20,213 nucleotides of DNA, from IMG/VR virus record IMGVR_UViG_3300036859_000694, positions 1-20,213 of that record. One strand, written 5' to 3'. The position numbers and the translations under genes were made by a program. The DNA is from a virus. Of this stretch, positions 2,618 through 14,395 are shown in pieces (position 1 is the first letter of the stretch; every line of letters starts with the position of its first letter). The notes under the pieces were generated by a model that saw only the letters and a program-made list of their open reading frames with translations, did not search any database and had not been told where the DNA came from.

Positions 2618-2953
2618 CTACCGGCGGATCATCTCCTGCATGAGGCTATCCGCTAGGGCGTTCGTCTGGCCAGCCTTCTCGATCACCGCTTGGAACGCCG
2701 CGTACATCGCGTCTCGCTCGAGGGAGCTGCGGCCCACGTAAAAGGCTGCCACGAGCGACGACGCCCAGCAGCAGACGAGGATCGCACTCCACAGAATGAC
2801 GAGGGCCGGCAGCGTCAGGCGCGCACCGGCCCGTCGTCTTACTTGCTGAGACCCAGCAGGACCAGGATCACCAGCAGGGGCCCCGTGACTTCCTTCGTCC
2901 GCCACAAGTCGCGGAAGAAATTCGGGCGCGCGCGCTTTTCGGCGTCCTCCCAT
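2618..2953 (-). CDS. Last gene of the lysis module, single-pass membrane protein, start uncertain
   Basis: If read from the ATG at 2953 this is a 111-residue protein overlapping the spanin-like gene by 115 bases. The overlapped part has no recognisable domain. The convincing part is a strong transmembrane segment (about residues 48-73, LPALVILWSAILVCCWASSLV and onward) with two adjacent cysteines, followed by a helical charged tail ending in LMQEMIRR. A later GTG at 2905 is possible. No ATG, GTG or TTG occurs between it and the transmembrane segment, so some overlap is needed. A partner embedded partly in the spanin-like gene recalls Rz/Rz1 architecture, but there is no lipobox, so it should not be called Rz1. 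Function unknown. Confidence 0.45.
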   Translation of the reverse strand: MGGRRKARAPEFLPRLVADEGSHGAPAGDPGPAGSQQVRRRAGARLTLPALVILWSAILVCCWASSLVAAFYVGRSSLERDAMYAAFQAVIEKAGQTNALADSLMQEMIRR

Positions 2954-3441
2954 CGGACCCCCAGGGTGTCAAGTTGGAAGGCGAGTGAATCCACCCGCGC
3001 GGCCGCATCCGCGCGCGCGGTGTCCGCGTTCGCGGCCCGCGCCTCGCAGTTCAGGACCACCAGGCTGCATCCCGCCTGCTCGGCTTCCACGGCCGTGGCA
3101 GCACCCTCCAGGCGCTCGCCGGTGCCGCGATCGCCGCGTGCGCGTGCTTGCGCCGCCAGTTCTCGGATGGCCCACACGCCGGCGGTCGCGGCTTCCTGGG
3201 CGACGCCCCACCCGCGATAGACGCGTGCCGAGTCCTCCCGCAGTCGCGCGGCTTCAGCTGCAGCCGCGGCCGCGCGCACCCGCCAGGCGGCGGTTGAATC
3301 CCGCTCGGCCTTCAGCTCGGCGCGCATCGAGGCCACGGCGGGATCCGCGCGCGGGCTGATGATGCCCAACACACGCAGGGCAACGACGCCGGCGACGACC
3401 GCGGCCGCGACGGCGAGCACCGACCCGAGGACGCCCCTCAT
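2839..3441 (-). CDS. Membrane-anchored coiled-coil protein, spanin-like
   Basis: This is a 200-residue protein. Residues 5-28 are an N-terminal transmembrane segment. A long Ala/Arg/Glu-rich helical region (about 35-165, with stretches like MRAELKAERDSTAAWRVRAA) looks coiled-coil, with one CSLVVLNC cysteine pair near 124-131. A short hydrophobic stretch near the C-terminus (LLVILVLLGLS) closes the protein. Inner-membrane spanins have the first two features; the hydrophobic C-terminus is unusual. The ATG overlaps the stop of the JAMM-like gene (ATGA). Its place after the endolysin in a lysis module supports a spanin or other envelope-disruption role, but the sequence itself does not identify one. 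Confidence 0.5.
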   Translation of the reverse strand: MRGVLGSVLAVAAAVVAGVVALRVLGIISPRADPAVASMRAELKAERDSTAAWRVRAAAAAAEAARLREDSARVYRGWGVAQEAATAGVWAIRELAAQARARGDRGTGERLEGAATAVEAEQAGCSLVVLNCEARAANADTARADAAARVDSLAFQLDTLGVRWEDAEKRARPNFFRDLWRTKEVTGPLLVILVLLGLSK

Positions 3442-3860
3442 GGCTCGTTCACCTGGACCACCGCCGTCGTGTAGAGGATGGGATCCCCGCGTGCCATCCA
3501 TACCAGGCGGTCCCCACATACGATGGCGTCAAGGGCATACCCGCCACGCCGGAACGCGACCGCATCGGAGGTCTCCACGGTCGTCCCGGGGAACAGGTAC
3601 CAGCACCGGTCGGCCCCCGGGTGGGAATGCACGCGGCCCAGCGTGTGGGGCGGGCAGGGCTCGCGCGCCACCGTGTGCGTGCGGGTGGCCGTCGGGTCGG
3701 GGGTCACCACGACGGAGTCGACCCAGACCGTGGCGCCATCGTTGGCTCCGATCAGACACCCCTGGCGCTCAGTGGGGCTGAGCGCGAACAGCGTGAGGGT
3801 CGCCTGCGCCGGTCGGGTCACTACCATCCGGAGGACCAGGACCACGATCGTGAGGGTCAT
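3438..3860 (-). CDS. Exported JAMM/JAB-like metallopeptidase candidate
   Basis: This is a 140-residue protein. Residues 1-20 are hydrophobic and could be a signal peptide or anchor. The rest follows the JAB/MPN pattern: Glu31 in SPTERQGCLIG, a strand with VWVDSVVV, then HSHP at 78-81, and Ser98-Asp99 before AFRRGGYALDAIVCGDRLVWM. JAMM enzymes use Glu, two His and Asp around zinc. Here the gap from HSHP to the Asp is longer than usual and Ser sits next to Asp rather than three residues before it, so activity is uncertain. Four cysteines (35, 69, 86, 115) suggest disulphides outside the cytoplasm. The ATG overlaps the upstream stop. Lambda gpK carries a JAMM domain fused to NlpC; here the tail NlpC gene lacks one and this protein sits in the lysis module. 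Confidence 0.55.
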   Translation of the reverse strand: MTLTIVVLVLRMVVTRPAQATLTLFALSPTERQGCLIGANDGATVWVDSVVVTPDPTATRTHTVAREPCPPHTLGRVHSHPGADRCWYLFPGTTVETSDAVAFRRGGYALDAIVCGDRLVWMARGDPILYTTAVVQVNEP

Positions 3861-4675
3861 CGCCCACGCCCCCCGCGCCGCAGGGCGAACAGCACGACGA
3901 GCGTCCCATCGTGGGTGCTGCACTCGGAGCGCCGGCGCCAGACCTCGGACAGTCGCAGCGTGTCGCCGCTGCGCAGCAGCTCTGCCCAATGCGCGTAGAG
4001 GCGACCCTGCCCGCGCTCGGGGAAGTCCTGCGTCCACCAGATGCTGTCCGGTCGGCCGACGACTAGCCGTGATACCGCCACGGCCGGCACCACCGGCGCA
4101 CCGGCACGAGCGGTGCAGAGCGGTCCCGTCACCGGCGCGGGGAGCGAATCGAACCGCACGCCGTTCAGGATCACGATCGTATCGCCCGCCGGCGCCACGA
4201 TCACGAACCCATGGAATGGGGGCAGGTACAGCTGCAGCTCTTGGCCATAGGCCGTCGAGTCGAGTGTCGCGCTGCCCATGTGGAAGGGATTGAACAGCTG
4301 CTTGGGTGCTTTCTGCGCGGCGGCCGCGGCGGGCAGACCGACGAGCAGCGCCAGGAGCAGCGCCACTCGAGCGGCGATTCTCCCCAGCGCCCAGATGGCC
4401 GCGAGCGCGCCACCGGCGTCCCAGACCAGATCCCGATAGCTGAACGCGTCGCAGAGCGGCGGCCAGGGCTGCGGTCGGCCTTTCCTGACCCAGATCCTGA
4501 ACCGCACGAGCTCGACCAGCTCAATGCCGATCGCTCCCGCGGCGAATAGACCGAGGCGCGTCCATGGCGAGGACGTCAGCGCCGCGATGCCGAGCCAGTA
4601 CGCGACCGCGTAGACGAAGTGGTCGAGCTTGTCGAGACCGAACCAGGAGTCGCGGGCGAGCCAGCTAGCGCGCAT
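3857..4675 (-). CDS. Two-part membrane and exported protein next to the endolysin
   Basis: This is a 272-residue protein. Residues 1-100 form a small helical membrane domain with DKLDHF at 15-20, a Glu-rich turn IELVELVRFR and FSYRDLVWDAGG at 78-89, a pattern seen in VanZ-like and DUF2279/YfiM-like proteins. Residues 101-121 (RVALLLALLVGLPAAAAAQ) look exactly like a signal peptide inside the chain. Residues 122-272 are a beta-rich domain of unknown type, with one short-spaced cysteine each near 185 and 250. It may be a natural fusion, or an internal GTG at the RV of the signal could give a second product. It starts inside the endolysin gene (11-base overlap) and its stop overlaps the next start. 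A role in lysis or envelope remodelling is inference. Confidence 0.5.
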   Translation of the reverse strand: MRASWLARDSWFGLDKLDHFVYAVAYWLGIAALTSSPWTRLGLFAAGAIGIELVELVRFRIWVRKGRPQPWPPLCDAFSYRDLVWDAGGALAAIWALGRIAARVALLLALLVGLPAAAAAQKAPKQLFNPFHMGSATLDSTAYGQELQLYLPPFHGFVIVAPAGDTIVILNGVRFDSLPAPVTGPLCTARAGAPVVPAVAVSRLVVGRPDSIWWTQDFPERGQGRLYAHWAELLRSGDTLRLSEVWRRRSECSTHDGTLVVLFALRRGGRGR

Positions 4676-5408
4676 GGGCAGACGCCTCGGGCATAGGCCA
4701 CGCACCGAGCAGGCGCGCCAGGCGCCACTCGGGGAAGCCAGGGTGGAGATCGCTCTTGTCGGGGCGGAGCAGGGCGTGGTGCACGACGCCGGCGAACGCC
4801 GCCCAGCGGGTGCGATCGGCCGGGCCGAGCCATTCCGCGGCGCGGGGCAGCGCGGCCTGGATGCCGAACCGCTCGCACAGCCAGCGCACGAGGCGGCACG
4901 TCGCATCGATCTGGGGCTCGTCGTAGGCGTCGAACCACTCGAAGCCGCGCCAGCCCTGCGGAATCCGATACACGCGGCCCAACTCAAACAGCTTGTCCAC
5001 CATCCCGAGCGAGCGGCCAATGCCCCACAGCTCATCCCCCCGACGGGTCAGCGCACCTTCGCTGCAGAGCTCGATCCCGATCGTCCGCCGCTCGAGTGGC
5101 CCGTCGCCGAGACCGACGTGGAACGCCCAGCATTCGGGCGGGAACGTCTCGTAGATTGTGCCGTCGCGCTCGACCAGGTAGGCGGTGCCGACGCGCAGCT
5201 GGTCCCCGGGGAGCGCGCCCACCTTGCGATCGATCGTCCACCAGCGATAGGTCGAGCGCGCGGAGCCCCCCACCGTGTGGTGCAGCACGATCGTCTGCTT
5301 CTCACACGTCTGGGGGATGTACTGGCTCGTCGGGAGGCGGAGCGCCGTGCGATCGATCGCGGGTTCTGGCGCCGGGCCGACGAGCCCGGGCCACACGCGA
5401 TGCGTCAC
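4665..5408 (-). CDS. N-acetylmuramoyl-L-alanine amidase endolysin (Amidase_2)
   Basis: This 247-residue enzyme of the Amidase_2/PGRP family would cleave the bond between N-acetylmuramic acid and L-alanine in peptidoglycan. The first zinc ligand lies in VLHHTVGG (His43 or His44). The central VERDGTIYETFP, CWAFHVGLGDG and TIGIELCSEG strands are typical. The C-terminal VVHHALLRPDKSDLHPGFPEW supplies the second His and the Lys-Asp-Pro-Gly-like motif. There is no obvious signal peptide or separate wall-binding domain, so it probably needs a holin. The GTG at 5408 is chosen because it overlaps the stop of the preceding membrane gene (GTGA); the frame is open much further upstream, but that is a shadow of that gene. 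It is flanked by membrane proteins, a standard lysis arrangement. Confidence 0.88.
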   Translation of the reverse strand: MTHRVWPGLVGPAPEPAIDRTALRLPTSQYIPQTCEKQTIVLHHTVGGSARSTYRWWTIDRKVGALPGDQLRVGTAYLVERDGTIYETFPPECWAFHVGLGDGPLERRTIGIELCSEGALTRRGDELWGIGRSLGMVDKLFELGRVYRIPQGWRGFEWFDAYDEPQIDATCRLVRWLCERFGIQAALPRAAEWLGPADRTRWAAFAGVVHHALLRPDKSDLHPGFPEWRLARLLGAWPMPEASAHAR

Positions 5409-5854
5409 AGCGGCGCTCCAGGGGGGACGGGGCTCCCGCCCGACGCGCGCGCGCGGAGGACGTCGCCCAAGCGCGCACCCAGCCGGCTCGACAGGAAGGC
5501 GTTGAACGCCTGCGGGCCGAGCGAGTAGACGAGCACGAGCAGCACGTACGCGAGGAAGGTCCAGCTGAGATCGCGTCCGTTGGTGTCGCCCGCCTGACGC
5601 TGGACCTGTTGCATCCCGAACCGGATCAGCCCGGCGAGCACCACCATCAGCGTGATGAAGTACGCGACTTTGGAGCGGCTCGGGCGGCCGTCGGGGCCGT
5701 AGAGGTCGCACCAGAAGTAGATCGGTTCGAGGATGAAGGCGAAGATCTTGGCGCTCGGTTGGCCCGCCCGATCGCGGGCGCGTCGCCCGATCACGCTGCC
5801 GACGAGGAGGCCGACGAGGACCGCAAGGGCCAGGACACCGAACTCGATGGTCAT
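5405..5854 (-). CDS. Three-helix membrane protein, holin candidate
   Basis: This 149-residue protein has three predicted membrane segments: about residues 4-23 (FGVLALAVLVGLLVGSVIG), 63-80 (VAYFITLMVVLAGLIRFG) and 101-118 (FLAYVLLVLVYSLGP). Between the first two lies a basic and aromatic loop with IYFWCDLYGPDGRPSRSK, and a basic tail follows the third. It overlaps both neighbours by four bases, being placed directly before the amidase. Size, topology and position fit a class I-like holin, which would form the lesion through which the endolysin escapes. I do not recognise the family, so the holin call rests on topology and neighbours. Confidence 0.55.
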   Translation of the reverse strand: MTIEFGVLALAVLVGLLVGSVIGRRARDRAGQPSAKIFAFILEPIYFWCDLYGPDGRPSRSKVAYFITLMVVLAGLIRFGMQQVQRQAGDTNGRDLSWTFLAYVLLVLVYSLGPQAFNAFLSSRLGARLGDVLRARASGGSPVPPGAPL

Positions 5855-6150
5855 GGTCGCTGGGCCGTCTGACGCTCGAGCTGGCGCTCCACGCGCTCAA
5901 GGACTGCGCCAATCCGCGCGAGCTGCTCGCCCTGCCCCTGCACGCGTTCCATCAGTCGATCGACGCTCAGTTGTAGTTGTCGGACCGTCTCACGATCGGC
6001 TAGGTAGGGGTCCTGCGTGCGGATCATCTCGGCGACATCAATGCGACTGACGGTCTGGCGACCCCAGGCGAACCAGGCGCCGCCACCAGTCAGGACGATA
6101 CTGAGCAGCGCCGTGATGAGGACGTGACGCCAGCCGTTCCCGTTCGCCAA
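5851..6150 (-). CDS. Single-pass membrane protein with coiled coil, first gene of the lysis module
   Basis: This is a 99-residue protein with one membrane segment (about 9-29, VLITALLSIVLTGGGAWFAWG) and a long C-terminal amphipathic helix (about 55-95, with heptad spacing in VRQLQLSVDRLMERVQGQ and IGAVLERVERQLERQ). Small proteins of this type often accompany holins or act as lysis regulators. The TTG at 6150 is the only sensible start in frame and has GAGGGAGG just upstream, a strong ribosome-binding site. It lies about 20 bases downstream of a strong intrinsic terminator, so its expression may need readthrough or a late antiterminator. Its stop overlaps the next start (ATGA). Confidence 0.6.
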   Translation of the reverse strand: MANGNGWRHVLITALLSIVLTGGGAWFAWGRQTVSRIDVAEMIRTQDPYLADRETVRQLQLSVDRLMERVQGQGEQLARIGAVLERVERQLERQTAQRP

Positions 6151-11000: not shown

Positions 11001-13341
11001 CCGTGTCGATCACGGCTGCACCATCCGCGTCGAGGGCGGCGCAGGTACCAGTGCCTTCGGCCGGGAAGGGAAAGACGGTGGTGGTGGCCCACTTCGCCGA
11101 GACGAACCCCGTCGCCTTCACGGAGAGCACGAGACGCTTCCCGCCCACGAACTCGGCCGTGACGGTCAGGAGGGCCCCTGCTTGCTGGTCCCATATGCGG
11201 CTGCGGCGGAACACGGGGGCCGACTCTCGGCCAGCACCCGCGGCGAGCTCGTAGGCGAAGGCCCCGATCTTCACCGTCCCGTTCGGGGCGACCGTGCCGA
11301 CGTTGTTCACGGTGGCGCGGCCGCTCGCGTCGGTGTTCACTGCAGCCGCGGCACGGATCTCAGTATCGGTGGGCTCCGTCCCATCCACCTTCGCGGCGGC
11401 TTTCACGGACAGGGCGTTCCGCGTCTGGACGATGAGGTTCACCTGCCCGGTGGCGAGGATCTCGATCTCGACCGAATCCACCCCCGGGTTCGGCGTCGTC
11501 ACGGTCGTGTTGCCCGACACCCACGTGCTGCGGATGCCGAGGGTGTTCACGGCGCTGATGCGGACGTTCCACAGCTCCTCGGTGACCGGGTAGACGTAGA
11601 TCAGGGGCACGTCCGAGCCCGGCACGCGCCCGAAGCTGTCCCAGTCCGCATCGGTGTTCCGCTTCGCCTGGATCTCGTAGTAGTCGATGAACGCGTCATC
11701 GGACTTGGTCCAGGTCGTCTTGATGCGGCCGACGTACGTACCGTCCTTGAGCAGCAGCGCCTGGGCCGCGCTCGAGTCGAGCACCAGCGCGGTCGGGGGC
11801 GTGCATGTGAATGGATCCGGGAGCCCGGTATCCGGAATCGCGGGCTGCGCCACCTGCGCGTCGAGGTCATAGACCGTCGGCTCGTACTCGGTCAGAATCG
11901 CCTGGACCGTCGCATCGGGTGCGAGGAGCAGCGCCACCACCCAGAAGGGCTTGTCGACCCACGCCGGTGTCGGCTGGGTCACCTCGACGATCTCGCCAAT
12001 CCGCACGGCGAGCGCCGATTCCTGCAGCGTGCAGATGGCCGCGATGCCCTCCCGGCCCTCCTTGAGCAGCGTCATCCCGATCTGCTGGGCCCGGAGTCGA
12101 TTGTCGGTGAAGGGCAGCTCCAGCTCGAGCCGCGACTCGTAGCCGTTGTCCTCCACGAGGTACGGGTTGGCCGCGCCGGGCTCCGGCCATTGGACGATGT
12201 CGGGCTGCGCCTCCCGGCCGGGGTCCACGTAGTTCACGCGGATGACATTCGGCGCGTCGGCCGCGCCCGGGAGGATAAACGACCAGGAGCCCTCGACCGT
12301 GTTAGTCTCGTTGATCTTGAAGCCGGAGACGGCCTGCTGCCGGCGGATCACGAGCCGCCACTTGTCGCCTTCATTGACCCACTGGCCGCGGCACGCCGTG
12401 CCGAGCTGCGCGAGGATCTCCTGGATGGTGAGACCGGTGTCCACCCACCCGTTCAGCGTGAACCGCTTCTGGGTGCCCCCGCCGGGGATCGAGACCAGCT
12501 CGTCGCAGTAGTTGGCGCCGTCGATGACACTCTGGTCGTCGATGTTCGCGGCGGGCACCCCGAAGCCGTAGATCGGCGAGAGCAGGAAGTCCCGGCCGCA
12601 GAGCGCGGGATTATCCGAATGCTTCCAGAGCCCGTCGCGCGGATCGTGGACCCGGTTGCCCCGGATCTGCGCGGTGATGCGGGGGATGCCGCTCGGGAAG
12701 ATGTCGTTGTTGAACCACAGCTCGAAGCGTGTGTAGGCCACCCCACGGCCCTGCGCCGCGGCCGGCCAGAACGTGGGGAAGAGCGTATTGAGCCGCGCGT
12801 CGACGGCCTGGCCGGTGCTGCCGAGGTGGTGGGCGTACTCCAGGTGCTTGATCCCGCCCTGGTTCGGGACCACCGCGGAGAATGGGCTCTGCACCACCCC
12901 AGCGGCATTGATCGCCTTGCGGTCATCAAACCAGACGTCAGCGATGCCCGCGATGTCGCCGCCATCCCGGGAGCCGTGACACCAGGCCCCCGCCATGACC
13001 AGGCGTCGGCGTTCGAGCGAGCCGAGGTGGACGCGGATGTCGATGAGGATATTACCGACCCGCGCGGTGCCGTAGAGCAGCGGCAAGGGTTCCTCGGCGC
13101 TGGCGCGATTCTCGAGGATGGCGCCCTGCCGATCGGCGAGGCTCCTCGGCCGGTTGAGCCCGCTCAGCGCGATGCTCGCGCCGCTCGTGATCATGATCTT
13201 CGCGAGCTGCCAGTTGCCCGTGGTGAAGCCAACGACCGCGCCCCCGACGATGAGCACGACGCCGGCGATAAGCCGTCCTACTTTGCCGATTTGGCCCTCC
13301 TCGCGCTGACCCGGGGGCGCCGTTGCGGCGTCAGCGCCCAC
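8032..13341 (-). CDS. Tail tip/central fibre protein, J-like, receptor binding
   Basis: This is a 1769-residue protein. Residues 20-65 are a glycine-rich hydrophobic stretch (LIAGVVLIVGGAVVGF, ITSGASIALSGL). Residues 80-500 resemble the conserved part of lambda gpJ-type tip proteins (PLLYGTARVGNILID, WFNNDIFP, NPALCGRDFLLSPIYG, YCDELV). A fibronectin-type III-like domain follows at about 510-620 (WTKSDDAFIDYYEIQA). Beyond it are four ESGGK repeats (861-1259), two jelly-roll-like regions (about 905-1050 and 1302-1494) and a beta C-terminus. The C-terminus has an H-type-lectin-like ITFTQTYQSAPMIFF near 1540. It would cap the tail and bind the host surface. The GTG at 13341 overlaps the NlpC gene by 64 bases and lacks a ribosome-binding site. 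The true start may be further in, where GAGGAGG precedes an in-frame ATC at 13290. Confidence 0.85.
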   Translation of the reverse strand: MGADAATAPPGQREEGQIGKVGRLIAGVVLIVGGAVVGFTTGNWQLAKIMITSGASIALSGLNRPRSLADRQGAILENRASAEEPLPLLYGTARVGNILIDIRVHLGSLERRRLVMAGAWCHGSRDGGDIAGIADVWFDDRKAINAAGVVQSPFSAVVPNQGGIKHLEYAHHLGSTGQAVDARLNTLFPTFWPAAAQGRGVAYTRFELWFNNDIFPSGIPRITAQIRGNRVHDPRDGLWKHSDNPALCGRDFLLSPIYGFGVPAANIDDQSVIDGANYCDELVSIPGGGTQKRFTLNGWVDTGLTIQEILAQLGTACRGQWVNEGDKWRLVIRRQQAVSGFKINETNTVEGSWSFILPGAADAPNVIRVNYVDPGREAQPDIVQWPEPGAANPYLVEDNGYESRLELELPFTDNRLRAQQIGMTLLKEGREGIAAICTLQESALAVRIGEIVEVTQPTPAWVDKPFWVVALLLAPDATVQAILTEYEPTVYDLDAQVAQPAIPDTGLPDPFTCTPPTALVLDSSAAQALLLKDGTYVGRIKTTWTKSDDAFIDYYEIQAKRNTDADWDSFGRVPGSDVPLIYVYPVTEELWNVRISAVNTLGIRSTWVSGNTTVTTPNPGVDSVEIEILATGQVNLIVQTRNALSVKAAAKVDGTEPTDTEIRAAAAVNTDASGRATVNNVGTVAPNGTVKIGAFAYELAAGAGRESAPVFRRSRIWDQQAGALLTVTAEFVGGKRLVLSVKATGFVSAKWATTTVFPFPAEGTGTCAALDADGAAVIDTATIFTFAQKVYITVTPYPGAACTGVAGAAVKVIARPAFADDQYDDAIGKRRRPGLYDDGHIALKGDVVDSAGERAHANVKESGGKVINRLLAKTLAADPDSLDGTPEGTTYKKLLMTHRRQLLNRKRSHGGDVLTEGGFEDGGVFWTQGGAISFPTNAVNAHTGNRYCEVTVAVPTDVFNLDGDGNLHLHEVQPGDVVQWGGYCGRVSGDGTAFFSLAIVDKDAIVISGNGSTQISAAPYQLSTGEVTIPVGAKYVRLKFTAANMTVSSTYRYDDAFLKILRPTGDLLPGALRSGINESGGKPVNRLLAKALAADPDTADSVAVGLLRDVVKLTALTSGEVDFSKVGVLNRVAANLLRAGGGATVQAIIANLTDASHAGSAMQESGGKLVNRLYAKALAADVDTIDSVVDGASFAKILGNRLSSGAILRSGAFSDGHYAGRFTTTDGLTGHSGLLESGAKALNRLFAKPLAADPDTADSVATGVVKRAVAFTTLNSSEELITKVHRTAAIGALVAHSLEKRAGIFFSESFEETPNTQGWDSAGSATETLVSTVGVATVGPNVLQAAGYMWRIFPRSLPFNPSKLYRFRARYRQTVDGSNPGVNNIVYIGLQTFKADGSPGNNNGGYAYVCITNDPRTVAQGWVERTGWVKGATDDGLGSPVASADPRNPSPLDANVVWIRPFIAVNYNGTGIPGTTQVDYFQIEELDEDAEQRLYNAINSSNRLYGSMEPTAKIYEGSVVYALYRHREESTVQGPDTDGDVAITFTQTYQSAPMIFFKGGQYVSFSQTLGTGAGAKHRMRIQALDVTATGFTSRTKIVNTGTTTPQTDDFASGNSITVVGNTAEVNLDPAGANDDTYTVHYFVSVTLSNPLTDPNVSLTVAIDSNDGVGGWVERATFQYNRASAGTSTWTEEQKPIVVSGIGLNDDIRLRAKSFIVHDATGSFIIRGGDAGGTNPEAYNGVTYTTATDTTESAIPVAGDQVTWVAQEVT
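9565..10761 (-). repeat. Four copies of a 24-residue ESGGK module in the tip protein
   Basis: Copies start at residues 861, 1078, 1164 and 1236 (DNA 10761-10690, 10110-10039, 9852-9781, 9636-9565). The consensus is ESGGKxxNRLxAKxLAADPD followed by TxDS. The first three share the 15-base string CTTCCCGCCCGACTC at 10747-10761, 10096-10110 and 9838-9852. The copies separate other domains, with a jelly-roll-like region between copies one and two. Confidence 0.8.
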
Positions 13342-13772
13342 AGGGTGTAGACGCGGCTATCGGGCGACAGCGAGCTGCGGTCTATCCACGCCACCCCGGT
13401 CTCTGGGGTGGCGCTGACGCACCAGGGGTCGGTGTAGACGAGCATGCCGAGCGGCTCCGTGCGATCGTCCGGGGCCGTCACGATGATGTCGCCCGCGCGG
13501 ACGAACGGGAGCGTGACGACCTCCGCGCCCAGGCTACGGAGGAGCGCATCGATGCCCCCGACGGCGCGGAGCGCACGCAGCGCCGTGCGCTTGCTGGTCC
13601 AGGTCGGTACCTGGGGCACCACGTCCCGGCAGAACATCTCGTACAGCGCCGCTCGGGCGAGCGCCGCGCAGTCCGTTTGTCCCCACACGTAGGGCTGCCC
13701 GCGGACGGTCTGAGCCCACACGAGCAGGCGCGTGCGCCATTGGGGGTGCCGGAAGACGATCGAGGCGCTCAC
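13278..13772 (-). CDS. NlpC/P60-like tail peptidase (DUF6950-like)
   Basis: This is a 164-residue protein. QPYVWGQTDCAALARAAL at about 24-41 contains the nucleophile Cys of NlpC/P60-type peptidases. Two strands, TLPFVRAGDIIV and GMLVYTDPWCVSA, fit the rest of the fold. A canonical His after the nucleophile domain is not evident, as in the DUF6950 group, so activity is uncertain. In siphoviruses such proteins (lambda gpK) sit in the tail tip and help peptidoglycan entry. The GTG at 13772 overlaps the upstream stop (GTGA). The basic C-terminus (RRPRVSARRAKSAK) overlaps the start region of the tip gene. It lacks the JAMM domain of lambda gpK. Confidence 0.72.
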   Translation of the reverse strand: MSASIVFRHPQWRTRLLVWAQTVRGQPYVWGQTDCAALARAALYEMFCRDVVPQVPTWTSKRTALRALRAVGGIDALLRSLGAEVVTLPFVRAGDIIVTAPDDRTEPLGMLVYTDPWCVSATPETGVAWIDRSSLSPDSRVYTLWALTPQRRPRVSARRAKSAK

Positions 13773-14395
13773 CGCCCGGGCCGATCCCCAGGGCGCACGG
13801 GGGGCTGGACGGTCGCTGGCGCCCGGGTGCCCCAATAGATCATCCGCCGGCCGAGCGACGCCGTGTGCTGGAAGAACAGATCACCGGCGAAGTGGTGCTG
13901 GTGGCTCACGAGGTTCGCGACGATGCCACGGACGCGCTCAAGCGCGAGGTAGCCCACGACGCGGGTCCGAATGGAGACGGTCCCGCCCTTGTGGTCCCGA
14001 TCCTCCTGGACCGCGTAGCCCTCGAGCTGCAGCCCTTCGAACAGGAGCAGGGGGCTATCCTTGACCGTGCCGAGGACGGGATCGAGGGCCGCCCGCCAGA
14101 TGCGTACCGTGCGGCCGCGCTGGTTGCTGCTGAGCAGCGCGGCAATGATCGTTTGGTCGACGCCGCTGAGGCGCAGCTCCACCCCCTGGGCCCGCTGGTC
14201 CGCCGTCTCCTCGACGCCGCCGAATTCCAGGAGCCCGCCGACGGCCTGCCAGTTGACCGCGTTCCAGGTGATCTGCTGCGTGCCGGTCGTCAGCCGGATC
14301 GGGCCACCTGAGAAGGTGATCTCGAGCAGATGGACGAACTCGCCTTGCTCCGCCGCGATCGCGGCCGCGAAGCCGGGCCCCAACGTGCGGGGCAT
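13769..14395 (-). CDS. Tail hub/minor tail protein (DUF2163-like)
   Basis: This is a 208-residue protein. FVHLLEITFSGGPIRLTTGTQQITWNAVNW starts a beta domain typical of hub-like minor tail proteins. GVELRLSGVDQTIIAALLS, TVRIWRAALD and LLLFEGLQLEGYAVQEDRD follow. The end reads HQHHFAGDLFFQHTASLGRRMIYWG, a GD-x-FF...WG signature seen in DUF2163-like tail proteins just before NlpC peptidases. Its place between the distal tail protein and the NlpC gene fits. The start shares one base with the upstream stop (TAATG) and the stop overlaps the next GTG. It probably forms the ring at the tail end to which the tip attaches. Confidence 0.68.
   Translation of the reverse strand: MPRTLGPGFAAAIAAEQGEFVHLLEITFSGGPIRLTTGTQQITWNAVNWQAVGGLLEFGGVEETADQRAQGVELRLSGVDQTIIAALLSSNQRGRTVRIWRAALDPVLGTVKDSPLLLFEGLQLEGYAVQEDRDHKGGTVSIRTRVVGYLALERVRGIVANLVSHQHHFAGDLFFQHTASLGRRMIYWGTRAPATVQPPVRPGDRPGR

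Follow-up and report, generated by a model that had tools for sequence, protein, structure and literature searches.

In this study, we show that positions 3438-3860 (minus strand) of the window, a 20,213-base IMG/VR virus record that is classed as linear and is therefore probably a fragment, hold a real gene of a tailed phage, and that its 140-aa product, P0001, is likely, from its residues and its profile match, to adopt a diverged JAMM/JAB fold. Our explanation as a whole, to which we give an even chance, is that P0001 is an accessory gene product of a late/lysis cassette, a small stand-alone protein of this fold whose catalysis would be altered or lost. The even chance refers to the whole explanation and the higher estimate to the fold alone, and the rival explanations weighed below overlap with the main one. 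Because the JAMM serine is misplaced, export is uncertain and our searches found no relative, we regard P0001 as a curiosity and not as a demonstrated lysis enzyme; so far its gene is a lone orphan encoding a putative enzyme. If it were active in the envelope, JAMM peptidases would gain a role in lysis, and as a pseudo-enzyme it would offer a natural test of the drift that a JAMM site can undergo.

The coding status of 3438-3860 is indicated by composition and by gene packing. The GC contents of the first, second and third codon positions (0.69/0.54/0.88) resemble those of the tail genes, and with 0.16 per codon its codon usage scores like that of the phage's structural genes. Moreover, the gene is joined to each neighbor by a 4-bp ATGA: one contains the stop of 3857-4675 and the start codon of the gene, the other the stop of the gene and the start codon of 2839-3441. 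Taken together, the codon statistics and these overlaps show that it is a real gene, one of a compact run that is probably transcribed together. The antisense reading frames at 3478-4293 and 3359-3781 have strongly negative codon scores and were rejected as genes, and the other-frame ORFs across 3438-3860 were likewise ruled out by codon statistics.

The sequence-only reading placed this gene in a phage lysis module, and that location is borne out by one family match and by the topology of overlapping genes on one strand. The match is to an N-acetylmuramoyl-L-alanine amidase, the endolysin, at 4665-5408 (-) (Amidase_2, E=1.8e-16). The remaining assignments come from topology: a putative holin-like membrane protein, for which about three TM segments are predicted and no family or phage match was found (5405-5854, -), a putative XhlA-like protein with one TM segment and a coiled coil (5851-6150, -), and an Rz-like protein with an N-terminal TM segment ahead of a long, Ala-rich coiled coil, the presumed inner-membrane spanin (2839-3441, -). 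Family searches with the holin-like, XhlA-like and Rz-like genes gave no convincing match, and the lysis-module context is a reasonable one in which holin and spanin are named from topology only.

Directly upstream of P0001, 3857-4675 (-) encodes a short VanZ/YfiM-like membrane protein (the first ~105 aa, with a weak YfiM match) and then, in frame, a signal-peptide-bearing protein. A stand-alone homologue of the membrane part, 56% identical, is encoded in another virus contig (L257/L259), and because this homologue ends after the membrane part, 3857-4675 is either a fusion or two overlapping genes. The second part carries a textbook signal peptide, VALLLALLVGLPAAAAAQ, and may have a GTG start of its own at 4366. 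The homologue (L259:10906-11211, -) lies beside TM/coiled-coil, DUF5675 and Rz-like genes, and since it recurs in the lysis region of another virus, the VanZ/YfiM-like gene may be a conserved lysis-cassette gene. In L257/L259 this region has no JAMM gene. The P0001 gene is accessory to the lysis module and, in the few examples seen, not a conserved part of it.

The JAMM motif is EXnHS/THX7SXXD (PMC300881). A JAMM site made up of Glu31, HSHP and Asp99 had been proposed from the letters of the gene, and these residues are indeed present (Glu31, His78-Ser79-His80-Pro81, Asp99; codons of the HSHP at 3618-3629, -), but the serine and the spacing of the motif are not. Glu31 aligns with the JAMM Glu in 12 of 12 gpK JAB rows (alignment A6) and also falls within the Pfam match described below. 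H78-S79-H80 supplies the H-S/T-H zinc-ligand element of JAMM/MPN+, and the distance from Glu to His, 47 residues, compares with 45-68 across 40 JAB domains and 45 in AfJAMM. The X7-S-X-X-D that should follow the second His is absent, and Tyr and Pro stand at those positions in P0001. The nearest downstream candidate is ETSD (context V-E-T-S-D-A-V-A-F), 8 residues beyond the canonical place, in which Glu96 aligns with the JAMM serine. The canonical Ser and Asp positions were filled as such in all 40 sampled JAB domains, a set partly chosen by an [STPA]xxD pattern. D99 pairs with the JAMM Asp unprompted in two of four MAFFT modes and not in the others; alignment A6 also pairs them, but was picked for that pairing. 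Starting at D99, the register of JAB domains is preserved in P0001 as far as a cysteine at D+16. We do not file P0001 as a canonical JAMM metalloprotease, because it lacks the serine/spacing element for which we looked; it could still work like one, since it has every metal ligand and the acid-base Glu.

The profile evidence agrees with a plausible relationship to JAMM/JAB proteins that stays below formal thresholds. Pfam Prok-JAB (PF14464) matched residues 28-83 (E=0.001) at 19.4 bits, under its cut-off of 25 bits; many chromosomal matches to the same model are likewise sub-cut-off at 19-25 bits, and these, judged by size, are probably RadC. Within residues 28-83 P0001 shares with the family the E..G.L.G and GxVHSHP elements, whereas its Asp half contributes no score. 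When GRVHSHP was kept fixed and the rest of P0001 was shuffled, none of 10 controls gave a Prok-JAB match, and therefore the Glu31-Gly-x-Leu/Ile region contributes to it. The combination of E..G, H[ST]HP and a downstream D arose in about 5 of 100,000 composition-matched shuffles of P0001, a rate scaled up from 1 of 20,000 shuffles. In hhalign against the gpK/JAB domains, 0 of 200 shuffles reached the score of P0001, the aligned part being only residues 72-83. With a profile HMM of the 40 JAB domains the score of P0001 was low, about 5 bits, and 4 of 2000 shuffles exceeded it; a gpK-centred HMM missed P0001, and PHROG, NCBIfam and PDB searches with P0001 returned no match.

Further support for the fold comes from the cysteines. 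The four that had been noted are present, at positions 35, 69, 86 and 115. In AfJAMM, a disulfide (C74-C95) joins a Cys of the beta4-alpha2 loop (H69+5) to a Cys of beta5 (D80+15) (PMC300881), and the counterparts in P0001 would be Cys86 (H80+6) and Cys115 (D99+16). Among the 40 JAB domains, 8 have the loop Cys, 8 the beta5 Cys and 7 both. The bacterial JAB domains with this pair (L358, L364, L368, L370, L371, L374, L375) read HSHPDC...SICDG, and their second Cys stands at exactly D+16, the same as in P0001; in contrast to P0001, they retain HSH-x7-SxxD. Random placement of four cysteines would give both a loop Cys and a beta5 Cys with a chance of ~4%. We therefore take the register of Cys86 and Cys115 as moderate, independent support for a JAMM fold and for D99 as its third ligand. 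AfJAMM (PDB 1R5X / 1OI0; PMC300881) resembles P0001 also in being a small stand-alone domain, and P0001 differs from it by an 8-residue loop insertion, a Glu in place of Ser77 and a hydrophobic N-terminal extension of ~9 residues.

Structure prediction added little weight. AlphaFold2 with the P0001 sequence alone was uninformative (pLDDT 35). With 12 forced gpK JAB rows it gave a mean pLDDT of 49 and a pTM of 0.46, from an alignment that had been picked to bring E, H and D into the same columns and that biases the model towards JAMM. This model shows the JAMM element order, that is, helix 17-27, five strands (32-38, 44-48, 51-54, 64-66 and 73-79) and helix 99-105, but because its alignment was selected for motif agreement it is not taken as proof. 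In a fold search of the same model against the PDB and viral structures, nothing reached E 0.001. The insignificant matches include a RadC, a viral deubiquitination hydrolase and chain V of the yeast 26S proteasome, which we take to be Rpn11 by usual naming.

The alternative that survives best is that P0001 has no JAMM fold at all and is an orphan exported protein in which HSHP arose by chance. The low score with the 40-domain HMM and the poor AlphaFold models favor it, as does the outcome of our homologue searches. No homologue was found in related-locus searches of IMG/VR and GTDB genomes, by tblastn in phages and plasmids, or in 80 + 399 + 194 genomes of three phyla, where weak short matches appeared only in the 80-genome set; these negatives are limited by the 8-mer back-translation search, which is insensitive for a single protein. 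However, the Pfam match at E=0.001 disappears in the controls that keep GRVHSHP, the E..G...HSHP...D arrangement is rare in shuffles and the cysteine pair lies in register, so that we give chance resemblance a real but minority probability.

On the explanation that we prefer, a diverged JAMM/JAB fold, alpha1 would span approximately residues 17-27, Glu31 would start beta2, His78 and His80 would sit on beta4 and Asp99 would open alpha2. A Cys86-Cys115 disulfide would brace the zinc loop, as in AfJAMM, and zinc would probably still be bound through His78, His80 and Asp99; Glu31 would hold the water. With a loop longer by 8 residues and a Glu in place of the oxyanion serine, catalysis would be either altered or lost. 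The likeliest role would be peptide or isopeptide hydrolysis, or else zinc-site-dependent binding, late in infection.

The same two changes, Ser to Glu and the 8-residue insert, speak for a JAMM-fold pseudo-enzyme that keeps a zinc or structural site, performs no hydrolysis and binds lysis or envelope proteins. The mutation S128A in Csn5, at the equivalent of the JAMM serine, abolishes activity (PMC300881). On the other hand, a pseudo-enzyme would have no need of the metal ligands and acid-base Glu that P0001 keeps in full, and nearby Thr/Ser residues could stand in for the serine. We consider such a pseudo-enzyme unlikely, while giving it some weight.

Whether P0001 leaves the cytoplasm depends on its hydrophobic N-terminal segment, MTLTIVVLVLRMVV (3819-3860, -), which may be a signal or anchor, or beta1 of the fold. 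The sequence-only reading described a signal-like N-terminus. The hydrophobicity that it pointed to is indeed unusual, as the 10-residue KD over the first 14 residues is 3.05 compared with at most 1.79 in 40 JAB domains, residues 3-14 resemble an h-region, and Ala-Gln-Ala stands at 18-20. However, there is no charged n-region, Arg11 sits inside the hydrophobic run, and in a 19-residue window the KD of 1.38 stays below the TM threshold. The putative signal also overlaps helix alpha1 of the JAMM fold, around which the sheet curls in AfJAMM (PMC300881). Since cleavage after Ala20 would strip most of alpha1 from mature P0001, a cleavable signal is in tension with an intact JAMM fold; the segment could instead be an anchor that stays uncleaved, or beta1 of a cytoplasmic protein. 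Export of P0001 is accordingly uncertain on these sequence features.

These features bear most directly on the proposal, made when the gene was first read, of an exported cell-wall peptidase or envelope factor. Such a metallopeptidase would act in the periplasm, where its disulfides would form, and would aid lysis by cutting stem peptides of peptidoglycan or an envelope protein. The hydrophobic N-terminus, the Ala-Gln-Ala, the even number of cysteines and the amidase and spanin-like neighbors speak for it. Against it stand the atypical signal just described and the loss of most of alpha1 that cleavage would entail, together with the absence of the canonical catalytic serine and the absence of the gene from the one other phage seen with a VanZ/YfiM-like gene in its lysis region. 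Moreover, because the Cys86/Cys115 pair is a JAMM feature that also occurs in ordinary bacterial JAB domains, the cysteines are no argument for export. We regard an exported cell-wall peptidase as possible but unsupported, and improbable. The narrower version, a secreted or membrane-anchored lysis-cassette zinc peptidase of JAMM fold in which a Glu replaces the oxyanion serine and a disulfide braces the lengthened zinc loop, and which would cut peptidoglycan cross-links or an envelope protein during phage lysis, is a long shot.

Lysis cassettes often carry accessory genes at their edges. This would accommodate a cytoplasmic protein, a JAMM-type deconjugase or a counter-defence accessory factor, whose gene sits in the late operon by happenstance, and bacterial JAB proteins usually do act with ubiquitin-like and E1-like partners (PMC1779556), but no such partner was recognised within the 20,213-base window, the N-terminus is hydrophobic and the active site is altered, which leaves this role distinctly improbable.

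In phages, JAMM/JAB domains have been described in tail-assembly proteins fused to NlpC (PMC1779556). The lambda gpK-type tail proteins (JAB + NlpC/P60) are, like P0001, phage-encoded and carry the G-x-V-H-S-H-P motif, but their JAB domain is fused to or lies next to NlpC/P60 at the tail tip, whereas P0001 is unfused and lies ~9.4 kb from the NlpC-like gene of this virus, in the amidase run and not in the tail cluster. That tail-tip gene (13278-13835, -) encodes a DUF6950 protein with no JAB match, in agreement with the earlier remark that it lacks a JAMM domain. A GxVHSHP scan of IMG/VR returned mostly gpK JAB-NlpC proteins, and a scan for HSHP...CW returned no JAMM.

Relatives of the tail module were found in IMG/VR through the tail-tip protein, the nearest (L094) being 52% identical there. 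No homologue of P0001, of the amidase or of the VanZ/YfiM-like protein was found in the tail-relative loci fetched, and in L007 and L008, the two examined in detail, other genes follow the tail tip. A Prok-JAB search of the tail-related virus and phage records (34 + 9, several of them fragments) found no JAB at the tail tip; the only match, in G039, was to an unrelated protein in the head-gene region. Given these searched records, it is unlikely that the NlpC gene once carried a JAB domain that now persists separately as P0001. A stand-alone Prok-JAB-like protein with a GRWHKHAAP motif is encoded in the head-gene region of one tail-module relative (L244:1468-1980, +; contig 3300020152_000004).

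Two further observations concern the genes beyond the Rz-like gene. A 111-aa ORF with one TM segment at 2618-2953 (-) overlaps the Rz-like gene by ~115 bases; codon statistics favor a later start, and it is a possible second spanin-like component. Beyond it, a DUF4258 protein (2218-2463, -) is directly followed by a DUF2283 + HTH_17 protein (1796-2218, -), and the two genes look like a toxin-antitoxin-type pair.
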